From positions 1-14,323 of the forward strand of contig CAJWIA010000013.1 of NCBI GenBank assembly GCA_913040765.1: a stretch of 14,323 nucleotides of DNA, read 5' to 3'. Made by a program: the position numbers and the translations under genes. Origin of the DNA: an uncultured Anaerolineales bacterium. GTDB taxonomy: Bacteria > Chloroflexota > Anaerolineae > Anaerolineales > UBA11657. The notes beneath the pieces are model-generated. The model did not search any database. It saw only the letters and a list, made by a program, of their open reading frames with translations, and was not told the origin of the DNA. How positions within the stretch are numbered: position 1 is the first letter of the stretch; every line of letters begins with the position of its first letter. Shown piece after piece: positions 7,324 through 14,323 of the stretch.

Positions 7324-8157
7324 CTATTCTTGCCTACCAAACAGCCATACGGCCGGTATCAAAAATAGAACAGAAAAAGAGGCCATCATCATCACATTAT
7401 AAGTCACTGGATTTAAAGATACTGTATGCATTAAATCCGGAGGCACTAGTGCTTGTAAGGATACCTGTCTTAATGGGTCTACACCATAAGTGACGGGGTC
7501 CAACTTTGAAAGTAAGTACATCCAAACCGGTACACCACGAAGTGGGAAAAATGCACCAGAAAGAAAAAACATGGGTAATAGCACAAAATTCATCATCATA
7601 TGAAAGCCTTCCATAGATTTTTGCCTTGCTGCTATAAGAATACCTAAAGATGTCATCATAACTGCAAGCATCACCATGAGACCAATTAGACTAACTATTT
7701 GGGAGATTGACAAATTAACTCCCAGTACTGGAGCCAATAATAAAACAATCAATCCTTGGAACAATGACACTGTACTACCACCCGCTACCTTGCCCAGAGC
7801 GACCGCTACCCTAGACACAGGAGCCACCATAACCTCTTTTAAAAACCCAAATTCGCGATCCCATACAATTGACACTGCTGAAAACACTGAAGTAAACAAC
7901 ACTGTCATGGTCAAGACTCCAGGAAACATGAATTGCTTGAAATCGATATTACCGCCTCCCATCTCGCGCATAGCAGGTGACAAACCGCTACCAAACACAA
8001 AAAGATATACTATTGGCATTCCAAGAGACGAAAACATACGCACACGGTCTCGTTTGAAACGAACAATATCACGGTACCAGATCGTATAGGCACCTCTAAC
8101 ATTTCGTTTTAGCATTTCCATAATATTATCACTTGGTTTATCTAACGCCCTCGCCAC
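7324..8157 (-). CDS. ABC-2 type transporter permease (DrrB-like)
   Basis: This is the membrane subunit of an ABC exporter of the ABC-2 family, which includes the daunorubicin-resistance permease DrrB and O-antigen/lipid exporters. The 277 residues show an amphipathic N-terminal helix and six predicted membrane segments (about 43-59, 76-99, 126-147, 154-176, 187-206, 253-273). The family motif DREFGFLKEVMVAPVSR (100-116) is the coupling loop. LSGAFFPLRGVPVWM (199-213) and DPVTYGVDPLRQ (220-231) are typical of the second half. The assigned start is a GTG at 8157 that overlaps the upstream ATPase gene by 16 bases; ATG codons at 8121 or 8115 are alternatives that would shorten the protein by 12-14 residues. 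No terminator is evident after the stop. Substrate unknown. Confidence 0.93.
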   Translation of the reverse strand: MARALDKPSDNIMEMLKRNVRGAYTIWYRDIVRFKRDRVRMFSSLGMPIVYLFVFGSGLSPAMREMGGGNIDFKQFMFPGVLTMTVLFTSVFSAVSIVWDREFGFLKEVMVAPVSRVAVALGKVAGGSTVSLFQGLIVLLLAPVLGVNLSISQIVSLIGLMVMLAVMMTSLGILIAARQKSMEGFHMMMNFVLLPMFFLSGAFFPLRGVPVWMYLLSKLDPVTYGVDPLRQVSLQALVPPDLMHTVSLNPVTYNVMMMASFSVLFLIPAVWLFGRQE

Positions 8158-9137
8158 CGTCGCATCCCACTGCGAACTTTATCCTTATCCACAGCATTTT
8201 GGTCGCGCATAGCATGACCAGTAAGTTTAATGAATACGTCCTCGAGAGTAGGACACCGCAAGTATACACTTTTCACAGATATATTTCCTTGTGTCTGATC
8301 AGTAAGAACTGACATCATTTCGGGAATAAATCGATCCCCGCGCTCTGTTTCTATTATAAGTTGATTGTCAGGTCCTTTTCTAGTATCAACACCATGTGAA
8401 TTTTGCAATCTGAGGGACGCTTGCTCATTGTCATCGGTAATCGCCATAATAATATCACCACCAACCATCGCCTTGAGTGCTTCCGGAGTATCAAGACCAA
8501 CAATTTTGCCATCATCTATAATGGCGATGTGATCACAATGTTCCGCTTCTTCCATATAGTGAGTTGTCATGAACATAGTGACACCCTGGCGCTCACGCAA
8601 TGTTATCAGATAATCCCAAATGTGTCGGCGTGTCTGTGGATCCAGGCCCAGTGTAGGCTCATCCAAAAACAATATATTTGGATTATGTAACAAGCCACGA
8701 ACTATTTCCAGACGACGCTTCATACCACCAGAATAATTCAGGACTACTTCCTCAGCACGATCAGTTAGTTCAACCATATCCAGTAACTTAGCAGCCTTGT
8801 CTGAGAAATCGTCTGCGGACAAGCCGTACAACATGCCATGAAACAAAAGATTCTCGCGTCCGGTTAGTTTGTCATCCAAGCTTGCATCCTGAAAAATCAT
8901 CCCTATCGACTGTCGTACCAGTGCCTGCTGCTTACCAACATCATATCCATTTACTAATGCAGTACCAGATGTTGGTCGTAGAAGAGTAGTTAGCATATTT
9001 ATTGTGGTGGTCTTACCAGCACCGTTAGGCCCTAGAAAACCAAATATTTCCCCTGATTCTACTTTAAAGCTAATATCGTCTACAGCAACATTTTTGCCAA
9101 AGTGACGTACAAGTTGTTCTACTTTTATAGAATACAT
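8142..9137 (-). CDS. ABC transporter ATP-binding protein (DrrA-like, daunorubicin-resistance family)
   Basis: This is the ATPase subunit of the ABC-2 exporter. The 331 residues carry Walker A GPNGAGKTT (36-44), Q-loop Gln83, signature YSGGMKRR (135-142), Walker B ILFLDEP (155-161), GLDPQTRR and H-loop His193. The DrrA-specific region MIFQDASLDDKLTGRENL (80-97) is present, as is a C-terminal regulatory extension with PTLEDVFIKLTG (297-307). The ATG at 9137 is chosen because the conserved domain begins at once (YSIKVEQLVRHFGKN) and because it sits 11 bases after the stop of the upstream gene. A longer frame open to 9218 would overlap that gene heavily and adds only non-conserved residues. Its stop lies inside the permease gene, so the pair is translationally coupled. 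Confidence 0.94.
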   Translation of the reverse strand: MYSIKVEQLVRHFGKNVAVDDISFKVESGEIFGFLGPNGAGKTTTINMLTTLLRPTSGTALVNGYDVGKQQALVRQSIGMIFQDASLDDKLTGRENLLFHGMLYGLSADDFSDKAAKLLDMVELTDRAEEVVLNYSGGMKRRLEIVRGLLHNPNILFLDEPTLGLDPQTRRHIWDYLITLRERQGVTMFMTTHYMEEAEHCDHIAIIDDGKIVGLDTPEALKAMVGGDIIMAITDDNEQASLRLQNSHGVDTRKGPDNQLIIETERGDRFIPEMMSVLTDQTQGNISVKSVYLRCPTLEDVFIKLTGHAMRDQNAVDKDKVRSGMRRWRGR

Positions 9138-9148
9138 TTGATATAGCT

Positions 9149-9577
9149 CTAGGTAACAGATTTTAGTAGTACTACTGGAATTTGTCGCTCTGTCCGTTCT
9201 TTGTATCGCTTCAACCAAGGAAATTGTAATCCAAGTCGCTTGCTCTCACTTCCTTGTGTGAGAATAGCGAACACATCGATAGTCCTGTCACCAACTTCCA
9301 TGCTGGCTCCCGGATCACTTACAAGATTCAAAAACCAAGCAGGATGCCAGTCTCTACCACCATTTGAGGCAACTACAGCATAATTGTCTCCATCCTTCAC
9401 CGCTCCTAAAGGTATAGTATGCAGCCGACCAGTTTTCCTGCCAGTAGTAGTTAGAAGAAGTACAGGTCTTCCCTGCACTGACCCCAAAAGACGTCCTTTA
9501 GAGTAACGATACACAAATATGTGAATCCTCATAAGTATTCGAATAATTGGCCTACTCAACAGCACTCTAGTCAACAT
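9149..9577 (-). CDS. Nitroreductase-family deazaflavin (F420)-dependent oxidoreductase, Ddn-like
   Basis: The 142-residue product matches the Ddn/DUF385 family of small split-beta-barrel proteins that bind coenzyme F420. Visible family marks are the central TTGRKTGRLHTIPLGAV block (44-60), in which basic residues contact F420 phosphates, then SNGGRDWHPAWFLNL (71-85) and a C-terminal IPVVLLKSV. Members reduce quinones, nitroaromatics or other activated alkenes; the substrate here is unknown. The start ATG at 9577 has no obvious Shine-Dalgarno and may be leaderless; Met16 is a later alternative. The gene is the first of an apparent operon with the DrrAB-like exporter, with an 11-base gap to the ATPase. 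If the enzyme truly uses F420, the host must make F420, which helps to narrow the taxon. Confidence 0.87.
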   Translation of the reverse strand: MLTRVLLSRPIIRILMRIHIFVYRYSKGRLLGSVQGRPVLLLTTTGRKTGRLHTIPLGAVKDGDNYAVVASNGGRDWHPAWFLNLVSDPGASMEVGDRTIDVFAILTQGSESKRLGLQFPWLKRYKERTERQIPVVLLKSVT

Positions 9578-9781: not shown

Positions 9782-9802
9782 GTTGCCGATTTAAGGACTA
9801 TA

Positions 9803-9871
9803 ATGAATACTAGTGTAATTGCGGTGTACAAGGCAAAGAAGAGCAAGCCTACCCTAGACGGGGTTGGTTAA
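9803..9871 (+). CDS. Lysine-rich leader peptide of the lys operon attenuator
   Basis: A 22-codon frame starts at ATG 9803 and ends with TAA 9869-9871. A good Shine-Dalgarno AAGGA (9793-9797) sits five bases upstream. The middle reads YKAKKSKP: Lys codons 10, 12, 13 and 15 are all AAG and lie at 9830-9847, while there is no Arg codon. Its second half (codon 15 onward) overlaps the left and right arms of a hairpin that competes with an antiterminator, so ribosome position would decide RNA folding. The peptide itself probably has no function after synthesis. Leader peptides rich in the end-product amino acid are the hallmark of trp, his, thr and leu attenuators, and peptide-mediated attenuation has, as I recall, been described for the lysine cluster of Thermus thermophilus. 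Translation here is inferred, not shown. Confidence 0.75.
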   Translation: MNTSVIAVYKAKKSKPTLDGVG

Positions 9872-9958
9872 TTTGCGCTTCGGCACAGCGATGCGGTAAT
9901 AGCATCCATACACCAGTGTCATTTGCAGATAACAACCCCGTTACTACGGGGTTTTTTT
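9846..9958 (+). promoter_or_regulatory. Transcription attenuator with mutually exclusive hairpins upstream of lysW
   Basis: Three alternative structures can be drawn. Protector hairpin: AGCC and ACCC (9846-9849, 9851-9854) pair with GGGT and GGTT (9861-9864, 9866-9869). Antiterminator: 9859-9876 pairs with 9925-9940, anchored by CGGGGTTG (9859-9866) against CAACCCCG (9933-9940) and extended to ATTTGC (9871-9876) against GCAGAT (9925-9930), with single bulges at 9867 and 9870. Terminator: 9934-9940 with 9947-9953. The last two share 9934-9940 and exclude each other. A ribosome stalled on the Lys codons blocks the protector and favours the antiterminator; one reaching the TAA covers 9859-9869 and favours termination. 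Inside the antiterminator loop, GATGC/GCATC (9890-9894/9902-9906) forms a small hairpin. No T-box GGTGG or L-box core was recognised. Confidence 0.72.
9934..9958 (+). terminator. Rho-independent terminator (regulated) before lysW
   Basis: A 7-base-pair stem AACCCCG (9934-9940) / CGGGGTT (9947-9953) with a six-base loop TTACTA is followed by a run of seven T (9952-9958). It is oriented toward lysW and lies 54 bases before its ATG, with no complete gene upstream on this strand except the leader peptide. That position is expected for an attenuator and not for an end-of-operon terminator. Confidence 0.88.
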
Positions 9959-10011: not shown

Positions 10012-10197
10012 ATGAGTGTTGACAGTGTAACTACAACGAGTGAGTGTCCAGAATGTGCAGGTGAACTCACACTTGAACAAGTTGCACTAGGAGAGATTTT
10101 AGTATGTGATGATTGTGGTGCCGAATTAGAGGTGCGATCACTGGAACCATTGTCCATTAGTCTTGCCCCACAAGAAGCAGAAGATTGGGGAGAGTAA
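10012..10197 (+). CDS. lysW: LysW amino-group carrier protein
   Basis: LysW is the small acidic carrier protein whose C-terminal Glu side chain is joined to the alpha-amino group of alpha-aminoadipate, protecting it and presenting the intermediate to LysZ, LysY and LysJ. The 61 residues contain a zinc-ribbon pair CPEC (12-15) and CDDC (32-35), an acidic surface, and the invariant ending EDWGE (57-61) that is the attachment site and defines the family. Length is normal for LysW with a slightly longer N terminus. The ATG at 10012 follows AAGGAG by 11 bases. It is the first structural gene after the lysine attenuator, and lysX follows after 27 bases. In organisms that also make arginine this way the carrier serves glutamate too. 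Confidence 0.96.
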   Translation: MSVDSVTTTSECPECAGELTLEQVALGEILVCDDCGAELEVRSLEPLSISLAPQEAEDWGE

Positions 10198-10224: not shown

Positions 10225-11073
10225 ATGCATATTGGAGTAGTATATTCTAGGTTACGCGTAGAAGAAAAGTGGCTATTTAAGGCTCTGGAAAGTCGAGAAG
10301 TATCCTTTGAAAGGCTATTGGATAGCCAAGTAATTTTACAGCTTGATAATGATAATAACGAATGGTCACGATTTGATGCAATTATTGTAAGAAGCCTGAG
10401 TACTAGTCGCGGATTGTCAATTGCACGAGTACTTAATTCTTTTGGAATACCCACTATAAATTCCTATTCGGTTTCAGAAGTATGTAGTGACAAAGTGGCT
10501 ACTTCGCTTGCTCTAAAAAATGCTGGTATACCTCAACCTAAATCATTGCTCGCTTTTACAGTCAAAGGTGCTATCGAAGCTGGAGAAAGACTTGGATACC
10601 CTTATGTACTAAAACCGGTAGTGGGATCATGGGGCCGACTAGTAAGTCGTATCAACGACCGAGACGCAGCTGAAGCAATATTTGAACACCGGGATGTTCT
10701 AGGTAAGTATCAACATCATATATATTATTTGCAGCAACTTATCCAAAAACCAGGACGTGATATCCGAGCATTCGTCATAGGTAATGAAACCCCTGTAGCG
10801 ATTTACCGCGAATCTGAACATTGGATAACTAATACTGCATTAGGTGCTACTGCCACAACCTGTGAGGTAACAAATGAACTGCATGATCTTTGTCAGAGAG
10901 CAGCTACTGCAGTAGGAGGTGGTGTACTAGCTGTGGATCTTTTAGAAGATCCAGACCGCGGTCTTTTGATAAACGAAATAAATCACACCATGGAGTTTCA
11001 CTCCACTGTACCAATTACTGGTGTGGACATTCCTGGTATGATCATCGAACATGTGCGACAGGTGTCGAAATGA
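10225..11073 (+). CDS. lysX: LysW--alpha-aminoadipate ligase (ATP-grasp, RimK-like)
   Basis: LysX uses ATP to form an isopeptide bond between the gamma-carboxyl of LysW's terminal Glu and the alpha-amino group of alpha-aminoadipate. The 282 residues are the normal length and have the ATP-grasp layout: Lys90 and Lys130 for nucleotide binding, the loop PVVGSWGR (131-138), the substrate-region motif HWITNTALGATA (199-210), Asp238, and the metal-binding EINHTMEF (251-258). The ATG at 10225 has GAGGA four bases upstream. It overlaps lysY by ATGA. ArgX, the glutamate-specific paralogue, looks much the same, so amino-acid preference (aminoadipate, glutamate or both) cannot be fixed by eye; the lysine leader and the adjacent homocitrate synthase gene favour aminoadipate. 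Confidence 0.94.
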   Translation: MHIGVVYSRLRVEEKWLFKALESREVSFERLLDSQVILQLDNDNNEWSRFDAIIVRSLSTSRGLSIARVLNSFGIPTINSYSVSEVCSDKVATSLALKNAGIPQPKSLLAFTVKGAIEAGERLGYPYVLKPVVGSWGRLVSRINDRDAAEAIFEHRDVLGKYQHHIYYLQQLIQKPGRDIRAFVIGNETPVAIYRESEHWITNTALGATATTCEVTNELHDLCQRAATAVGGGVLAVDLLEDPDRGLLINEINHTMEFHSTVPITGVDIPGMIIEHVRQVSK

Positions 11074-12107
11074 GTTTACGTATATCTATTGTTGGCGGTT
11101 CAGGATACACAGCTGGTGAAATGCTCCGACTGATAATCAATCACCCTGAGCTAGAAATCGGACAAGTTGTATCACGAAGTAATGCCGGGCAGCCAATGTG
11201 GCGATTACACCCGCATCTTCGAGGACATAATCTACCATCGTTTGTAGATATTGATTCTTTGAATGAGACGGATATTCTTATCCTTGCGCAACCTCATGGA
11301 ATTGCGCAGAAAAAGATAGCTTATTACTCCGAGATTTCACCTAAAATCATTGATCTGTCTTCTGACTTTAGGCTAAATACACTAACAAACTATGCAAAAT
11401 GGTATGGTGATGAACATTTAGCACCAGATTGGTTACCACGATTTGTGTATGGACTGCCAGAAATTTATAGAAAAGAGATAGGTGATTCTCAATATGTAAG
11501 TGGTGTGGGATGTAATGCTACTGCAAGTATTTTGGCACTCCTTCCTCTCATAAAACATGATCTCCTTATTACAGACAGACCCATCATAGCCGAAATCAAA
11601 ACCGGGTCTAGTGAAGGTGGTTCTAAAGCAAACCCAGGTAGCCACCATCCAGTTCGCAGTGGATCAGTTCGAAGCTATGCTTCAGTAGGGCACCGACACA
11701 CTGCTGAGATACAGCAAGTATTAGGTGTTGAGGATCTACACATCAGTCTAACTGCAATAGAAATGGTACGTGGAGCATTAGCTACAGTGCATGCGTTTGT
11801 AAATCCAAGTACTAGCTTAAAAGATTTGTGGAAAGCTTACAGATCAACATACAAACATGAACCATTTGTACGCATAGTTAGAGATAACCATGGAAATTAT
11901 CGCCGTCCTGAACCAAAAATTATTTCTGGTAGCAACTTTGCTGATGTGGGTTTCGACCTAGACCCTCAAACGGGCAGAGTAGTGTCAATATGTGCCATTG
12001 ATAATCTAATGAAAGGTTCAGTCGGCACGGCAATGCAGTGTGTCAACATTATGTGTGGTTTTGAAGAAACAACCGGGTTGGAATTTACGGGTCTACACCC
12101 GATCTAG
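11070..12107 (+). CDS. lysY: LysW-gamma-L-alpha-aminoadipyl-6-phosphate reductase (ArgC-like)
   Basis: LysY reduces the carrier-bound acyl phosphate to the semialdehyde with NADPH; it is homologous to ArgC. The 345 residues show a Rossmann motif GGSGYTAGE (9-17), catalytic Cys148 in SGVGCNATA, the His-containing VGHRHTAE (206-213), and the family ending DNLMKGSVGTAMQ (311-323). SSEGGSKANPGSHHPVRSGS (180-199) is the typical LysY/ArgC loop. The ATG at 11070 is chosen because the Rossmann fold begins immediately and it forms a 4-base overlap with the lysX stop; an open frame reaching back to 10890 is antisense-like to lysX coding sense and not conserved. A GATCTAGGAG at its 3' end places the next gene's ribosome site over its stop. 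It may double as ArgC if the host lacks one. Confidence 0.94.
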   Translation: MSLRISIVGGSGYTAGEMLRLIINHPELEIGQVVSRSNAGQPMWRLHPHLRGHNLPSFVDIDSLNETDILILAQPHGIAQKKIAYYSEISPKIIDLSSDFRLNTLTNYAKWYGDEHLAPDWLPRFVYGLPEIYRKEIGDSQYVSGVGCNATASILALLPLIKHDLLITDRPIIAEIKTGSSEGGSKANPGSHHPVRSGSVRSYASVGHRHTAEIQQVLGVEDLHISLTAIEMVRGALATVHAFVNPSTSLKDLWKAYRSTYKHEPFVRIVRDNHGNYRRPEPKIISGSNFADVGFDLDPQTGRVVSICAIDNLMKGSVGTAMQCVNIMCGFEETTGLEFTGLHPI

Positions 12108-12117
12108 GAGTGACATC

Positions 12118-12924
12118 ATGCTTGTTGTCAAAATCGGTGGGGCTAGCGGAGTTAATATTAAATCTATCGTAGCTGACATCGCAACTCAGACAGCATCTGG
12201 TGAGAAATTAATTGTAGTACACGGCGGATCTGAACTAGCTACTGAACTTGGTGAACAACTTGGATACCCACCACGATTTGTAACATCAGCAAGTGGCCAC
12301 ACCAGTCGGTACACAGACAAGCGTACTCTAGAAATCTTTCTTATGGCAACCGGTTTATTAAATCGAAGATTAGTAGGACAACTGCAGAATCTAGGGGTTA
12401 ACGCGTTTGGACTTAGTGGATTAGATGGTAGGCTATTGTTAGCAGAACGTAAATCCACTATACGTATCGTGGACAACGGCAAACGCAAGATTCTGCGAGA
12501 CGATTACACCGGCCGTATTGAAACTGTCAACATAAAGGCTATTAGGGCACTACAAGACGCAGGACATATACCTGTTGTAGCACCAGTCGCAATTTCAGAG
12601 TCTGGAGAAGCACTAAACGTTGATGGGGACCGTGCAGCCGCCCGTTTAGCAGGCACGGTAGAAGCTGATACACTTGTCATACTGAGCAATGTATCAGGTT
12701 TATTGAGTGACTTAGAAGACCCTAATAGCTATATACCACGCATATCAGCAAATGATATGGATGATGCGATTAATAATATCGCTCGTGGACGTATGAAAAG
12801 AAAATTAATCGCTGCACGTGAAGCCTTAGATGATGGAGTAAAGCAAGTGATTATTGCTAACGGTAAAATAGATCAACCGATTACAAAAGCTTTGAAAGGC
12901 GAAGGTACGTTGATCAATGACTGA
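12118..12924 (+). CDS. lysZ: LysW-aminoadipate kinase (ArgB-like amino-acid kinase)
   Basis: LysZ phosphorylates the distal carboxyl of LysW-bound alpha-aminoadipate. The 268 residues belong to the acetylglutamate-kinase branch of the amino-acid kinase family: KIGG (5-8), VVHGGS (33-38), GHTSRYTDKRTLE (60-72), the nucleotide-site NVDGDRAAA (167-175), LVILSNVSGLL (186-196) and the C-terminal RMKRKLIAAREAL. The start ATG at 12118 has an AGGAG (12106-12110) spaced 7 bases away that overlaps the lysY stop; the frame is open further upstream to 12040, inside lysY, but that part is not conserved. It overlaps lysJ by 8 bases. The LysW-specific loop GHTSRYTD favours the carrier-dependent enzyme over a free acetylglutamate kinase. 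Confidence 0.93.
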   Translation: MLVVKIGGASGVNIKSIVADIATQTASGEKLIVVHGGSELATELGEQLGYPPRFVTSASGHTSRYTDKRTLEIFLMATGLLNRRLVGQLQNLGVNAFGLSGLDGRLLLAERKSTIRIVDNGKRKILRDDYTGRIETVNIKAIRALQDAGHIPVVAPVAISESGEALNVDGDRAAARLAGTVEADTLVILSNVSGLLSDLEDPNSYIPRISANDMDDAINNIARGRMKRKLIAAREALDDGVKQVIIANGKIDQPITKALKGEGTLIND

Positions 12925-14092
12925 TTCACAGTTTATAGAAAACAAACATACAAGTGGTGTGTACTACAAACGCGATATAACTATTGTGCGTGGTAAAGGA
13001 GCACTGGTTTGGGATCAACACGGTCAAGAATATATCGACTGTGTAGCAGGTCAAGGTGTAGCTAATTTAGGCCACTGTCACCCAATCGTCGTGGATGCAA
13101 TACAAAAACAGGCAAAAAACCTAGTTACGTGCCCGGAAATATTTTATAACGATCAGCGAGCAGAATTACTTGAGGAATTATCTAAATTAGGACCAGGCAC
13201 AATGAAACGATCTTTCCTGTGCAATTCTGGCACTGAAGCTATAGAAGCTGCTATAAAGTTTGCTCGTATCAGCACAAAACGAACGGAAATTATAAGCGCA
13301 CTGAGGAGTTTTCACGGACGTACTATGGGTGCACTTACATTGACCGGACAGAAAAAATATAGGACACCATTCGCACCGCTTTTGCCAGGCATTAAACAGA
13401 TTCCATACAACAATAGCGAGGCACTAAGAAATACTGTGACCCAAGATACTGCCGCAGTGATCCTGGAAATAATACAAGGAGAAGGTGGAGTTAGGCCTGC
13501 TAATATTGAATTCCTGCAAGATGCGCAAGCTCTTTGCAACGAAAAAGGCGCCCTATTCATAGTCGATGAAGTGCAAACAGGGCTTGGGCGTACAGGAAAA
13601 ATGCTTGCCTGTAATCATTACAACATAGAGCCAGACATACTTTGTCTGGCAAAATCTCTTGGAGGAGGTATACCAATGGGTGCTACCTTGTTAGGATCTC
13701 GAGTGCAAAACCTACACGCAGGAACACATGGATCCACATTCGGGGGAAATCCTCTGGCATGCGCAGCATCACTAGCTGTATTGGAAGTGTTGGAACGTGA
13801 AAATCTGCCTAAACGAGCTGCAGAACATGGTACACGCATCATGAAATTAGTTGGGCAATCTAATTTATCTAATGTGAGAGAGATACGTGGTTTAGGATTA
13901 ATGATTGGTATAGAACTAAAACATAAAGTTACTCCTGTATTGAAAGAACTACAACAGAGAGGTATCCTGGCACTACCAGCTGGAAATACTGTCTTACGAT
14001 TGCTACCTCCATTGATTATTGAACAACATCATGTGGATCGGGTCATTGATACAGTAATAGAAGTACTGTCAAATATCACTAAATCTAACTAA
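12917..14092 (+). CDS. lysJ: LysW-gamma-L-lysine aminotransferase (PLP class III, ArgD-like)
   Basis: LysJ transfers an amino group from glutamate to the carrier-bound semialdehyde, giving LysW-lysine. The 391 residues are normal for class-III aminotransferases: CNSGTEA (102-108), SFHGRT (131-136), EIIQGEGG (184-191), IVDEVQTGLGRTG (215-227) with the PLP-ring Asp217, the Schiff-base Lys246 in LAKSLGGG (244-251), and HGSTFGGNPLACAA (271-284). The ATG at 12917 overlaps the end of lysZ by 8 bases. The next gene begins 27 bases after its stop. ArgD would look similar; context decides the name. A dual role in lysine and ornithine synthesis is possible. Confidence 0.93.
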   Translation: MTDSQFIENKHTSGVYYKRDITIVRGKGALVWDQHGQEYIDCVAGQGVANLGHCHPIVVDAIQKQAKNLVTCPEIFYNDQRAELLEELSKLGPGTMKRSFLCNSGTEAIEAAIKFARISTKRTEIISALRSFHGRTMGALTLTGQKKYRTPFAPLLPGIKQIPYNNSEALRNTVTQDTAAVILEIIQGEGGVRPANIEFLQDAQALCNEKGALFIVDEVQTGLGRTGKMLACNHYNIEPDILCLAKSLGGGIPMGATLLGSRVQNLHAGTHGSTFGGNPLACAASLAVLEVLERENLPKRAAEHGTRIMKLVGQSNLSNVREIRGLGLMIGIELKHKVTPVLKELQQRGILALPAGNTVLRLLPPLIIEQHHVDRVIDTVIEVLSNITKSN

Positions 14093-14118: not shown

Positions 14119-14323
14119 ATGTCGCTAAACGATTTTGCCATTATAGAAAGCACACTAAGAGAGGGTGAACAATTTGTCGGTGCAGACTTCAGCACCGATG
14201 ATAAAGTAGAAATAGCCTACGCTCTAGCAAATTTCGGAGTTGAATATATTGAGCTTACATCTCCGTGCGCATCCCCAACATCACTCACGGATTGTAAACT
14301 CCTATCAAAACTAGACATTACCG
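14119..14323 (+). CDS. hcs: Homocitrate synthase, 3' part beyond the window
   Basis: This enzyme condenses 2-oxoglutarate with acetyl-CoA, the first committed step of the alpha-aminoadipate lysine route. Only the first 68 residues are visible. They include STLREGEQF, the N-terminal motif of the homocitrate/isopropylmalate synthase family with the Arg-Glu pair used in catalysis and metal binding, followed by [26 protein letters not shown]. This resembles the Thermus-type homocitrate synthase more closely than LeuA, which usually reads DTLRDGEQ at the motif. The start ATG 14119 has AAAGGA (14105-14110) eight bases upstream. Position right after lysJ supports the assignment. The rest, including the regulatory region, is outside the window. 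Confidence 0.9.

Follow-up and report, generated by a model that had tools for sequence, protein, structure and literature searches.

A putative leader-peptide attenuator ahead of the LysW-type lysine operon of an uncultured Anaerolineales bacterium

Several amino acid operons are known to be controlled by ribosome-mediated attenuators, among them those with trp, his and leu leaders. Lysine genes are controlled by the L-box (RF00168), a ligand-binding aptamer that works without a leader peptide, and the T-box (RF00230) senses tRNA charging by direct binding of the tRNA. To our knowledge, lysine specificity is uncommon among leader-peptide attenuators, and Lys-rich leaders are rare because lysine genes are mostly L-box-regulated. 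Leader-peptide attenuation of the LysW-pathway lysine cluster of Thermus thermophilus was reportedly described by Tsubouchi et al. in 2005. For ribosome-mediated attenuators in general, a paper on the His leaders of Firmicutes provides a comparison (PMC9413887). In a paper on lysine biosynthesis in Deinococcus-Thermus (PMC3356886), the terms attenuat, leader, regulat and transcription do not occur. Among the papers listed for lysine and arginine leaders, judged by title and the beginning of the abstract, none described such a system; the one paper listed for leaders in Chloroflexi concerned histidine.

Here we analyse a stretch of 14,323 nucleotides (the window) from a draft genome of 1.6 Mb that is 77% complete (G000:C13). 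Among the matches listed, the closest named relative is Anaerolineales bacterium UBA3499, whose LysX is 96% identical to that of the window. We conclude that the element upstream of lysW very probably acts on the lysine (alpha-aminoadipate, LysW) operon as a ribosome-mediated transcription attenuator, a prediction built on the leader, its RNA and their relatives. The mechanism is of a known kind and the leader itself is unannotated.

The leader frame and the operon behind it

The operon can be read directly from the plus strand in the order lysWXYZJ and continues into a homocitrate synthase gene. It comprises lysW for the amino-group carrier protein (10012–10197; TIGR01206, 76.2 bits, cut-off 53.2), the ligase gene lysX (10225–11073; TIGR02144, 336.1 bits, cut-off 275.6), a lysY/argC-like reductase gene (11070–12107; TIGR01850, 349.1 bits, cut-off 233.6), lysZ for the [LysW]-aminoadipate kinase (12118–12924; NF010659, 357.4 bits, cut-off 223) and a lysJ-like aminotransferase gene (12917–14092), for which the best model, NF042418, reaches 476.7 bits and stays under its cut-off of 700, with TIGR00707 above its own cut-off. 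Only the 5' part of the homocitrate synthase gene lysS (14140–14319) precedes the contig end that truncates it. The gene is entire in the related locus L032 (TIGR02146, 454 bits, cut-off 413.6), where genes for the large and small subunits of a homoaconitase-family enzyme come next; the models that score above cut-off for these are family-level and do not tell homoaconitase from isopropylmalate dehydratase. On the other side, a gap of 434 nt separates lysW (10012) from its divergent neighbour, a minus-strand gene for a nitroreductase family deazaflavin-dependent oxidoreductase (9149–9577), and holds the leader frame and the terminator on the plus strand. ABC transporter genes lie beside this neighbour on the minus strand (7324–9218); the model for the ATP-binding subunit (TIGR01188, drrA subfamily) scores above its cut-off and that for the permease (TIGR01247, drrB subfamily) below it.

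The leader frame has 22 codons (9803–9871, plus strand) and encodes MNTSVIAVYKAKKSKPTLDGVG, with its ATG at 9803 and the stop codon TAA at 9869–9871. A Shine-Dalgarno sequence AAGGA (9793–9797) lies 5 nt 5' of the ATG, and 140 nt separate the end of the leader from the start of lysW. Its Lys codons, all AAG, are located at 9830, 9836, 9839 and 9845 (codons 10, 12, 13 and 15), which places four Lys within six codons in a frame with no Arg codon. An earlier, sequence-only reading of this DNA had described just such a frame with a well-placed AAGGA and an Arg-free run of four AAG codons among six, and both descriptions hold. Further upstream, a promoter-like stretch seen in L001 (9753–9781, plus strand) consists of TTGCAC, a 17-nt spacer and TAAACT, with a TG one base upstream of TAAACT as in an extended -10 element. 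It is kept with small changes in L004 to L008, is a weak match to the sigma-70 consensus and is absent from the output of the promoter scan; if used, it would put the transcript start a few bases 5' of the leader.

A Lys-rich frame could also lie beside an ordinary terminator by accident. In favour of this, 24 of 3000 dinucleotide-shuffled versions of the gap contained a frame with four Lys in six codons, whatever the codon; with AAG as the only Lys codon the count was 1 in 3000, and with the further demand that Arg be absent it was 0 in 3000. Against an accident stand the retention of the frame in all four readable members of the genus, its recurrence ahead of lysW/lysX in other families and a perfect 9-bp competition of the leader end with the arm of the terminator. 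We consider an accidental frame barely credible.

Competing RNA structures and the proposed switch

The ribosome-mediated attenuator that we favour requires an RNA with alternative pairings. The 3' end of the leader (9857–9866, extended to 9877) is complementary to 9924–9942, a stretch that takes in the greater part of the terminator's 5' arm. Four segments on the plus strand can be distinguished. Segment 1 (GCCUACCCU, 9847–9855) pairs with segment 2 in the ribosome-free full-length fold. Duplex prediction and folding define segment 2 (GACGGGGUUG GUUA AUUUGCG, 9857–9877) as the 5' arm of an antiterminator, and the leader stop codon falls within it. Segment 3 (UGCAGAU AA CAACCCCGUU, 9924–9942) pairs either with segment 2 or, from 9934 on, with segment 4. 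Segments 3 and 4 make up the intrinsic terminator (AACCCCGU-UACU-ACGGGGUU followed by a T run, 9934–9958) with 8 pairs, 5 of them G-C, which is plain in the DNA; the helices competing with it are predicted folds. A stop codon inside an RNA structure and a terminator downstream had both been part of the sequence-only reading and are borne out, and the structure it noticed is, according to our folding, half of a fuller switch in which the leader end pairs with the terminator 5' arm.

The predicted duplex of segments 2 and 3 has an energy of -24.6 kcal/mol compared with a shuffled mean of -12.5, and 0 of 200 shuffles were as good. Across the order, 22 of 33 leaders had a duplex matched by at most 10 of 200 shuffles where about 2 such leaders would be expected, with terminators set by hand for three of the 33. 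The duplex was not better than 10 of 200 shuffles in the remaining 11 leaders, including L007 and L010 of the same family. Over nine relatives, 87.4% of the cells of the 15-pair helix were paired, compared with 35–54% in slid versions. Pairs changed on both sides numbered 3 versus 1.9 in shuffles (reached by 136 of 500), and the covariation score was reached by 87 of 500 shuffles; neither value stands out from the shuffles, a weak control because the sequences of the genus resemble one another. In several relatives the leader stop codon lies beyond segment 2. Comparisons of L017 with L137 and of L007 and L008 with L001 show an apparent one-base difference just 5' of segment 2 that shifts the stop codon from inside to beyond it, and in L022 the partner of the antiterminator apparently extends beyond the 5' arm of the terminator into its loop.

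The effect of a ribosome was modelled by assuming that it covers 12 nt from the A-site on and folding the RNA that remains free. With the A-site at 9836, 9839 or 9845 (the second to fourth Lys codons), the antiterminator is predicted in the full-length RNA; with the ribosome on the first Lys codon (9830), the terminator is preferred. In RNA that ends before segment 4, the antiterminator comes out as the best fold whichever of the four Lys codons the ribosome occupies. A ribosome at the stop codon is predicted to let the terminator form. Ribosome-free, the full-length RNA folds into a hairpin of segments 1 and 2 plus the terminator, and RNA ending before segment 4 forms the antiterminator instead.

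The switch that we propose would operate while RNA polymerase transcribes the leader with a ribosome following behind. A shortage of charged Lys-tRNA would make the ribosome pause on the AAG codons and mask segment 1, leaving segment 2 free; its pairing with segment 3 would prevent the terminator, and lysWXYZJ-lysS and the following genes would be transcribed. With plenty of lysine, the ribosome would reach the stop codon at 9869 and mask segment 2, and segments 3 and 4 would form the terminator. If the leader is not translated, segments 1 and 2 would pair and the terminator would form too. We infer translation of the leader, stalling on it, termination and the response to lysine from the sequence. 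The element fits the attenuator class because it combines a leader frame and ribosome binding site, a cluster of Lys codons, a terminator, a mutually exclusive antiterminator predicted for three of the four Lys codons, and conserved control codons; in their sequence, leader and RNA look as such a switch would be expected to look.

Alternatively, the conserved RNA could itself be a lysine-binding riboswitch to which the reading frame is incidental. The linker between segments 2 and 3 is nearly identical in L001, L003, L004 and L005, and the fold has a z-score of -2.96. By eye, however, the linker is already quite different in L006 of the same genus, no Rfam family matched the window at its gathering score, the Lys residues are kept through synonymous change, and the K/R content of the leaders tends to track the pathway. 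A riboswitch therefore appears very unlikely to us. In detail, the Rfam scan of the window gave 0 matches to the L-box (RF00168) and no match to the T-box (RF00230), and the best scores of Leu_leader (18.4 bits, cut-off 50) and Trp_leader (18.3 bits, cut-off 41) were both below gathering. Scans of the window and of eight lysW/lysX loci at gathering scores gave no riboswitch at the leader; a ninth sequence scanned with these loci was that of the L-box locus described below.

The kind of RNA switch in charge of lysine genes appears to vary by lineage in these bacteria, since an L-box precedes dapA and dapB in one genome and, in Dictyobacter aurantiacus, lysW has a T-box-like leader in front of it. 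The former (L112, 1501–1679) belongs to G047, a genome with no lysX match; in a scan that used stricter filters and scored no more than 35 candidates in each genome, an L-box was found in at least 1 of 61 genomes of the order. The latter (L152, 1001–1253; RF00230, 66.1 bits, cut-off 93, E 3e-14) lies 5' of lysW in the place that the leader peptide occupies in many Anaerolineales.

Conservation of the leader and its codon mix across the order

An alignment of relatives had been suggested by the sequence-only reading as a check of its lysine leader. We compared four leaders of the same genus (L001, L004, L005 and L006), leaving out L003, which is masked over most of the frame. The Lys run, the Pro, the start and the stop are visibly kept. 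The amino acid varies at 8 of 8 sites in codons 2–9, whereas it changes at 0 of 5 sites formed by the four Lys and the Pro, where synonymous changes occur instead (AAG/AAA at two Lys, CCT/CCC at the Pro). Within the Lys stretch, variation is limited to the two residues between the Lys. The Shine-Dalgarno sequence is AAGGA or GAGGA in three of the four and a weaker GAGAA in the other. This pattern, with Lys and Pro kept partly through synonymous change while codons 2–9 vary, suggests that the leader peptide is under selection. With conservation as predicted and the RNA element extended to a fuller switch, the interpretation as a lysine leader peptide gains support. Its generality has to be qualified: leaders with Lys only are found in the genus of the window and at most lysine-dedicated copies, whereas those of other relatives are of Lys plus Arg or Arg-rich. 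Leader motifs within the same family include AKKSKKEK (L007) and KAKKVKKNK (L008). In L012 and L013 of family f10, lysW is present and neither a terminator nor a leader was called; L009, whose contig begins just 5' of lysW, was excluded from this judgement.

The same conservation bears on a variant in which the RNA switch is unchanged and a nascent arrest peptide responds, inside the ribosome tunnel, to free lysine or some other ligand. The motif KxKKxKP, whose last Lys is followed by a Pro, is retained by the four readable members of the genus, and motifs like KKxKKxxK recur in some other families, as an arrest peptide might require. Residues before and between the Lys vary, however, the spacing of the Lys differs across clades, and Arg codons stand beside Lys or in its place where the search turned up no arginine route of its own, which is what codon counting predicts. 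We regard arrest by the peptide as unlikely and interpret the Lys codons as control codons of the ribosome-mediated attenuator.

This interpretation raises the question of which amino acid the operon makes. For archaea and Thermus, PMC10433800 describes LysW enzymes that produce lysine, arginine or both, and it gives a specificity motif of Asn-Thr in SaLysX and Gly-Phe in SaArgX. As a discriminator of lysine and arginine copies, the corresponding stretch of LysX failed in our set: WxTNTA, which we took for the specificity motif, was caught by pattern in 50 of 62 loci and was the same in all 50, across lysine-type, arginine-type and mixed copies. The enzyme motif therefore gives no backing to the split between lysine and arginine copies. 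In the genus of the window, argJ adjoins argH and argG in a separate argG-argJ-argH run; it scores above cut-off in G001 to G004 and as a fragment below cut-off in G000. Arginine thus seems to have its own route in this genus. lysA was not found in any of the six genomes G000 to G005. Together with lysS at the contig end and the homoaconitase-family genes behind it in L032, this favours lysine as the product of the operon. In the same family lysA was found above cut-off in G006 and as fragments in G007, and it scored above cut-off in 23 of 61 genomes of the order, so that elsewhere lysine may also be made by a route other than that of LysW. An argJ match was obtained in 10 of the 61 genomes and in 18 of 251 genomes of a larger sample. 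A lysX copy behind argH presumably makes arginine, judging from its place.

We expressed the codon mix as the Lys share, i.e. Lys among Lys plus Arg in the densest eight codons of a leader, and counted a genome as own-route if it has argJ or a further lysX copy located behind argH. The first set, 33 leaders chosen by eye and grouped afterwards, was exploratory; in it, the Lys share was 0.89 with an own arginine route (n=16) and 0.42 in the others (n=17; Mann-Whitney p 4e-6); p-values here ignore shared ancestry, except in collapsed and per-genus counts. With near relatives collapsed, the shares were 0.86 (n=11) and 0.42 (n=12; p 3e-4). For a second set, 85 other lysX loci were scanned by script and grouped by the rule of the first set, with K and R counts copied by hand. 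A leader was called in 28 of these loci and none in 57, of which 41 lie directly behind argH. Here the Lys share was 0.76 (n=13) versus 0.33 (n=15; p 8e-4), in a set that is not fully independent of the first because g24, g26, g31, g36 and other genera may occur in both. Without G134b, the own-route value was 0.82 (n=12; p 2e-4), and per genus it was 0.81 (8) versus 0.33 (10; p 0.003), one genus being on both sides. Both sets pooled gave 0.83 (n=29) versus 0.38 (n=32; p 3e-8).

Single genomes illustrate the trend. In G214, where one lysX copy (L197) lies behind argH, the second copy (L187) has a leader with the motif AKKSKKSQK, and KKMVKKQK precedes the second lysX copy of G282 (L267). Arg-containing leaders with PRYRRP (G218) and LRSRRP (G158) come from genomes without an argJ match. 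For the mixed group, no argH match was found in the stretches around the second lysX copies of G032, G066, G068 and G083 (L124, L142, L144, L158, L040); in G025 and G038, argH is present upstream and the leader sits between it and lysW. In the first set, L041 (0.80) and L042 (0.75) run against the trend, and L046 and L054 (both 0.67) do so to a lesser degree. Exceptions in the second set are G220, G184, G142 and G134b; the top leader candidate of G134b has no Lys though Lys-type was predicted, and G184 and G142, which are 77% and 81% complete, may lack an arginine copy. In G124 and G242, second-set genomes with argJ and lysX, no leader was called. Two genomes, G067 (L041) and G220 (L256), have Lys-rich leaders although the searches revealed no argJ and no second strong match to lysX; they are either incomplete or exceptions to the rule.

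Overall, leaders tend to be Lys-rich where arginine has its own route and mixed or Arg-rich where none was found. We consider it reasonably likely that the attenuator is widespread in the order and has been retuned with metabolism, with Lys codons where the LysW enzymes serve lysine alone and Lys plus Arg codons where these enzymes appear to produce both, so that one switch would read two amino acids and the leader could reveal the product of an ambiguous pathway.

Relation to known systems

Lysine genes are usually viewed as riboswitch territory, and a little-studied order appears to use a classical leader-peptide switch for the LysW pathway. What goes beyond one more example is that the codon mix tends to change with the use of the pathway across the order, in two sets of counts and with exceptions. 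If this codon rule holds, the sequence of the leader by itself would hint at the product of a LysW/LysX set, be it lysine, arginine or both.

The L-box shares with the Anaerolineales leader the control of lysine genes but is an aptamer without a leader peptide. The T-box likewise senses tRNA charging but binds the tRNA directly; neither was found at the window. With the trp, his and leu attenuators the element shares a small leader gene that holds codons for the regulated amino acid, an antiterminator that competes with a T-tailed terminator and a biosynthetic operon downstream. It differs from them in that the amino acid is lysine and the host belongs to the Chloroflexota, and the Leu_leader and Trp_leader models score far below their cut-offs. 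The lys leader of Thermus thermophilus would resemble the present one in that leader-peptide attenuation is reported to act on a lysine cluster of the LysW pathway.
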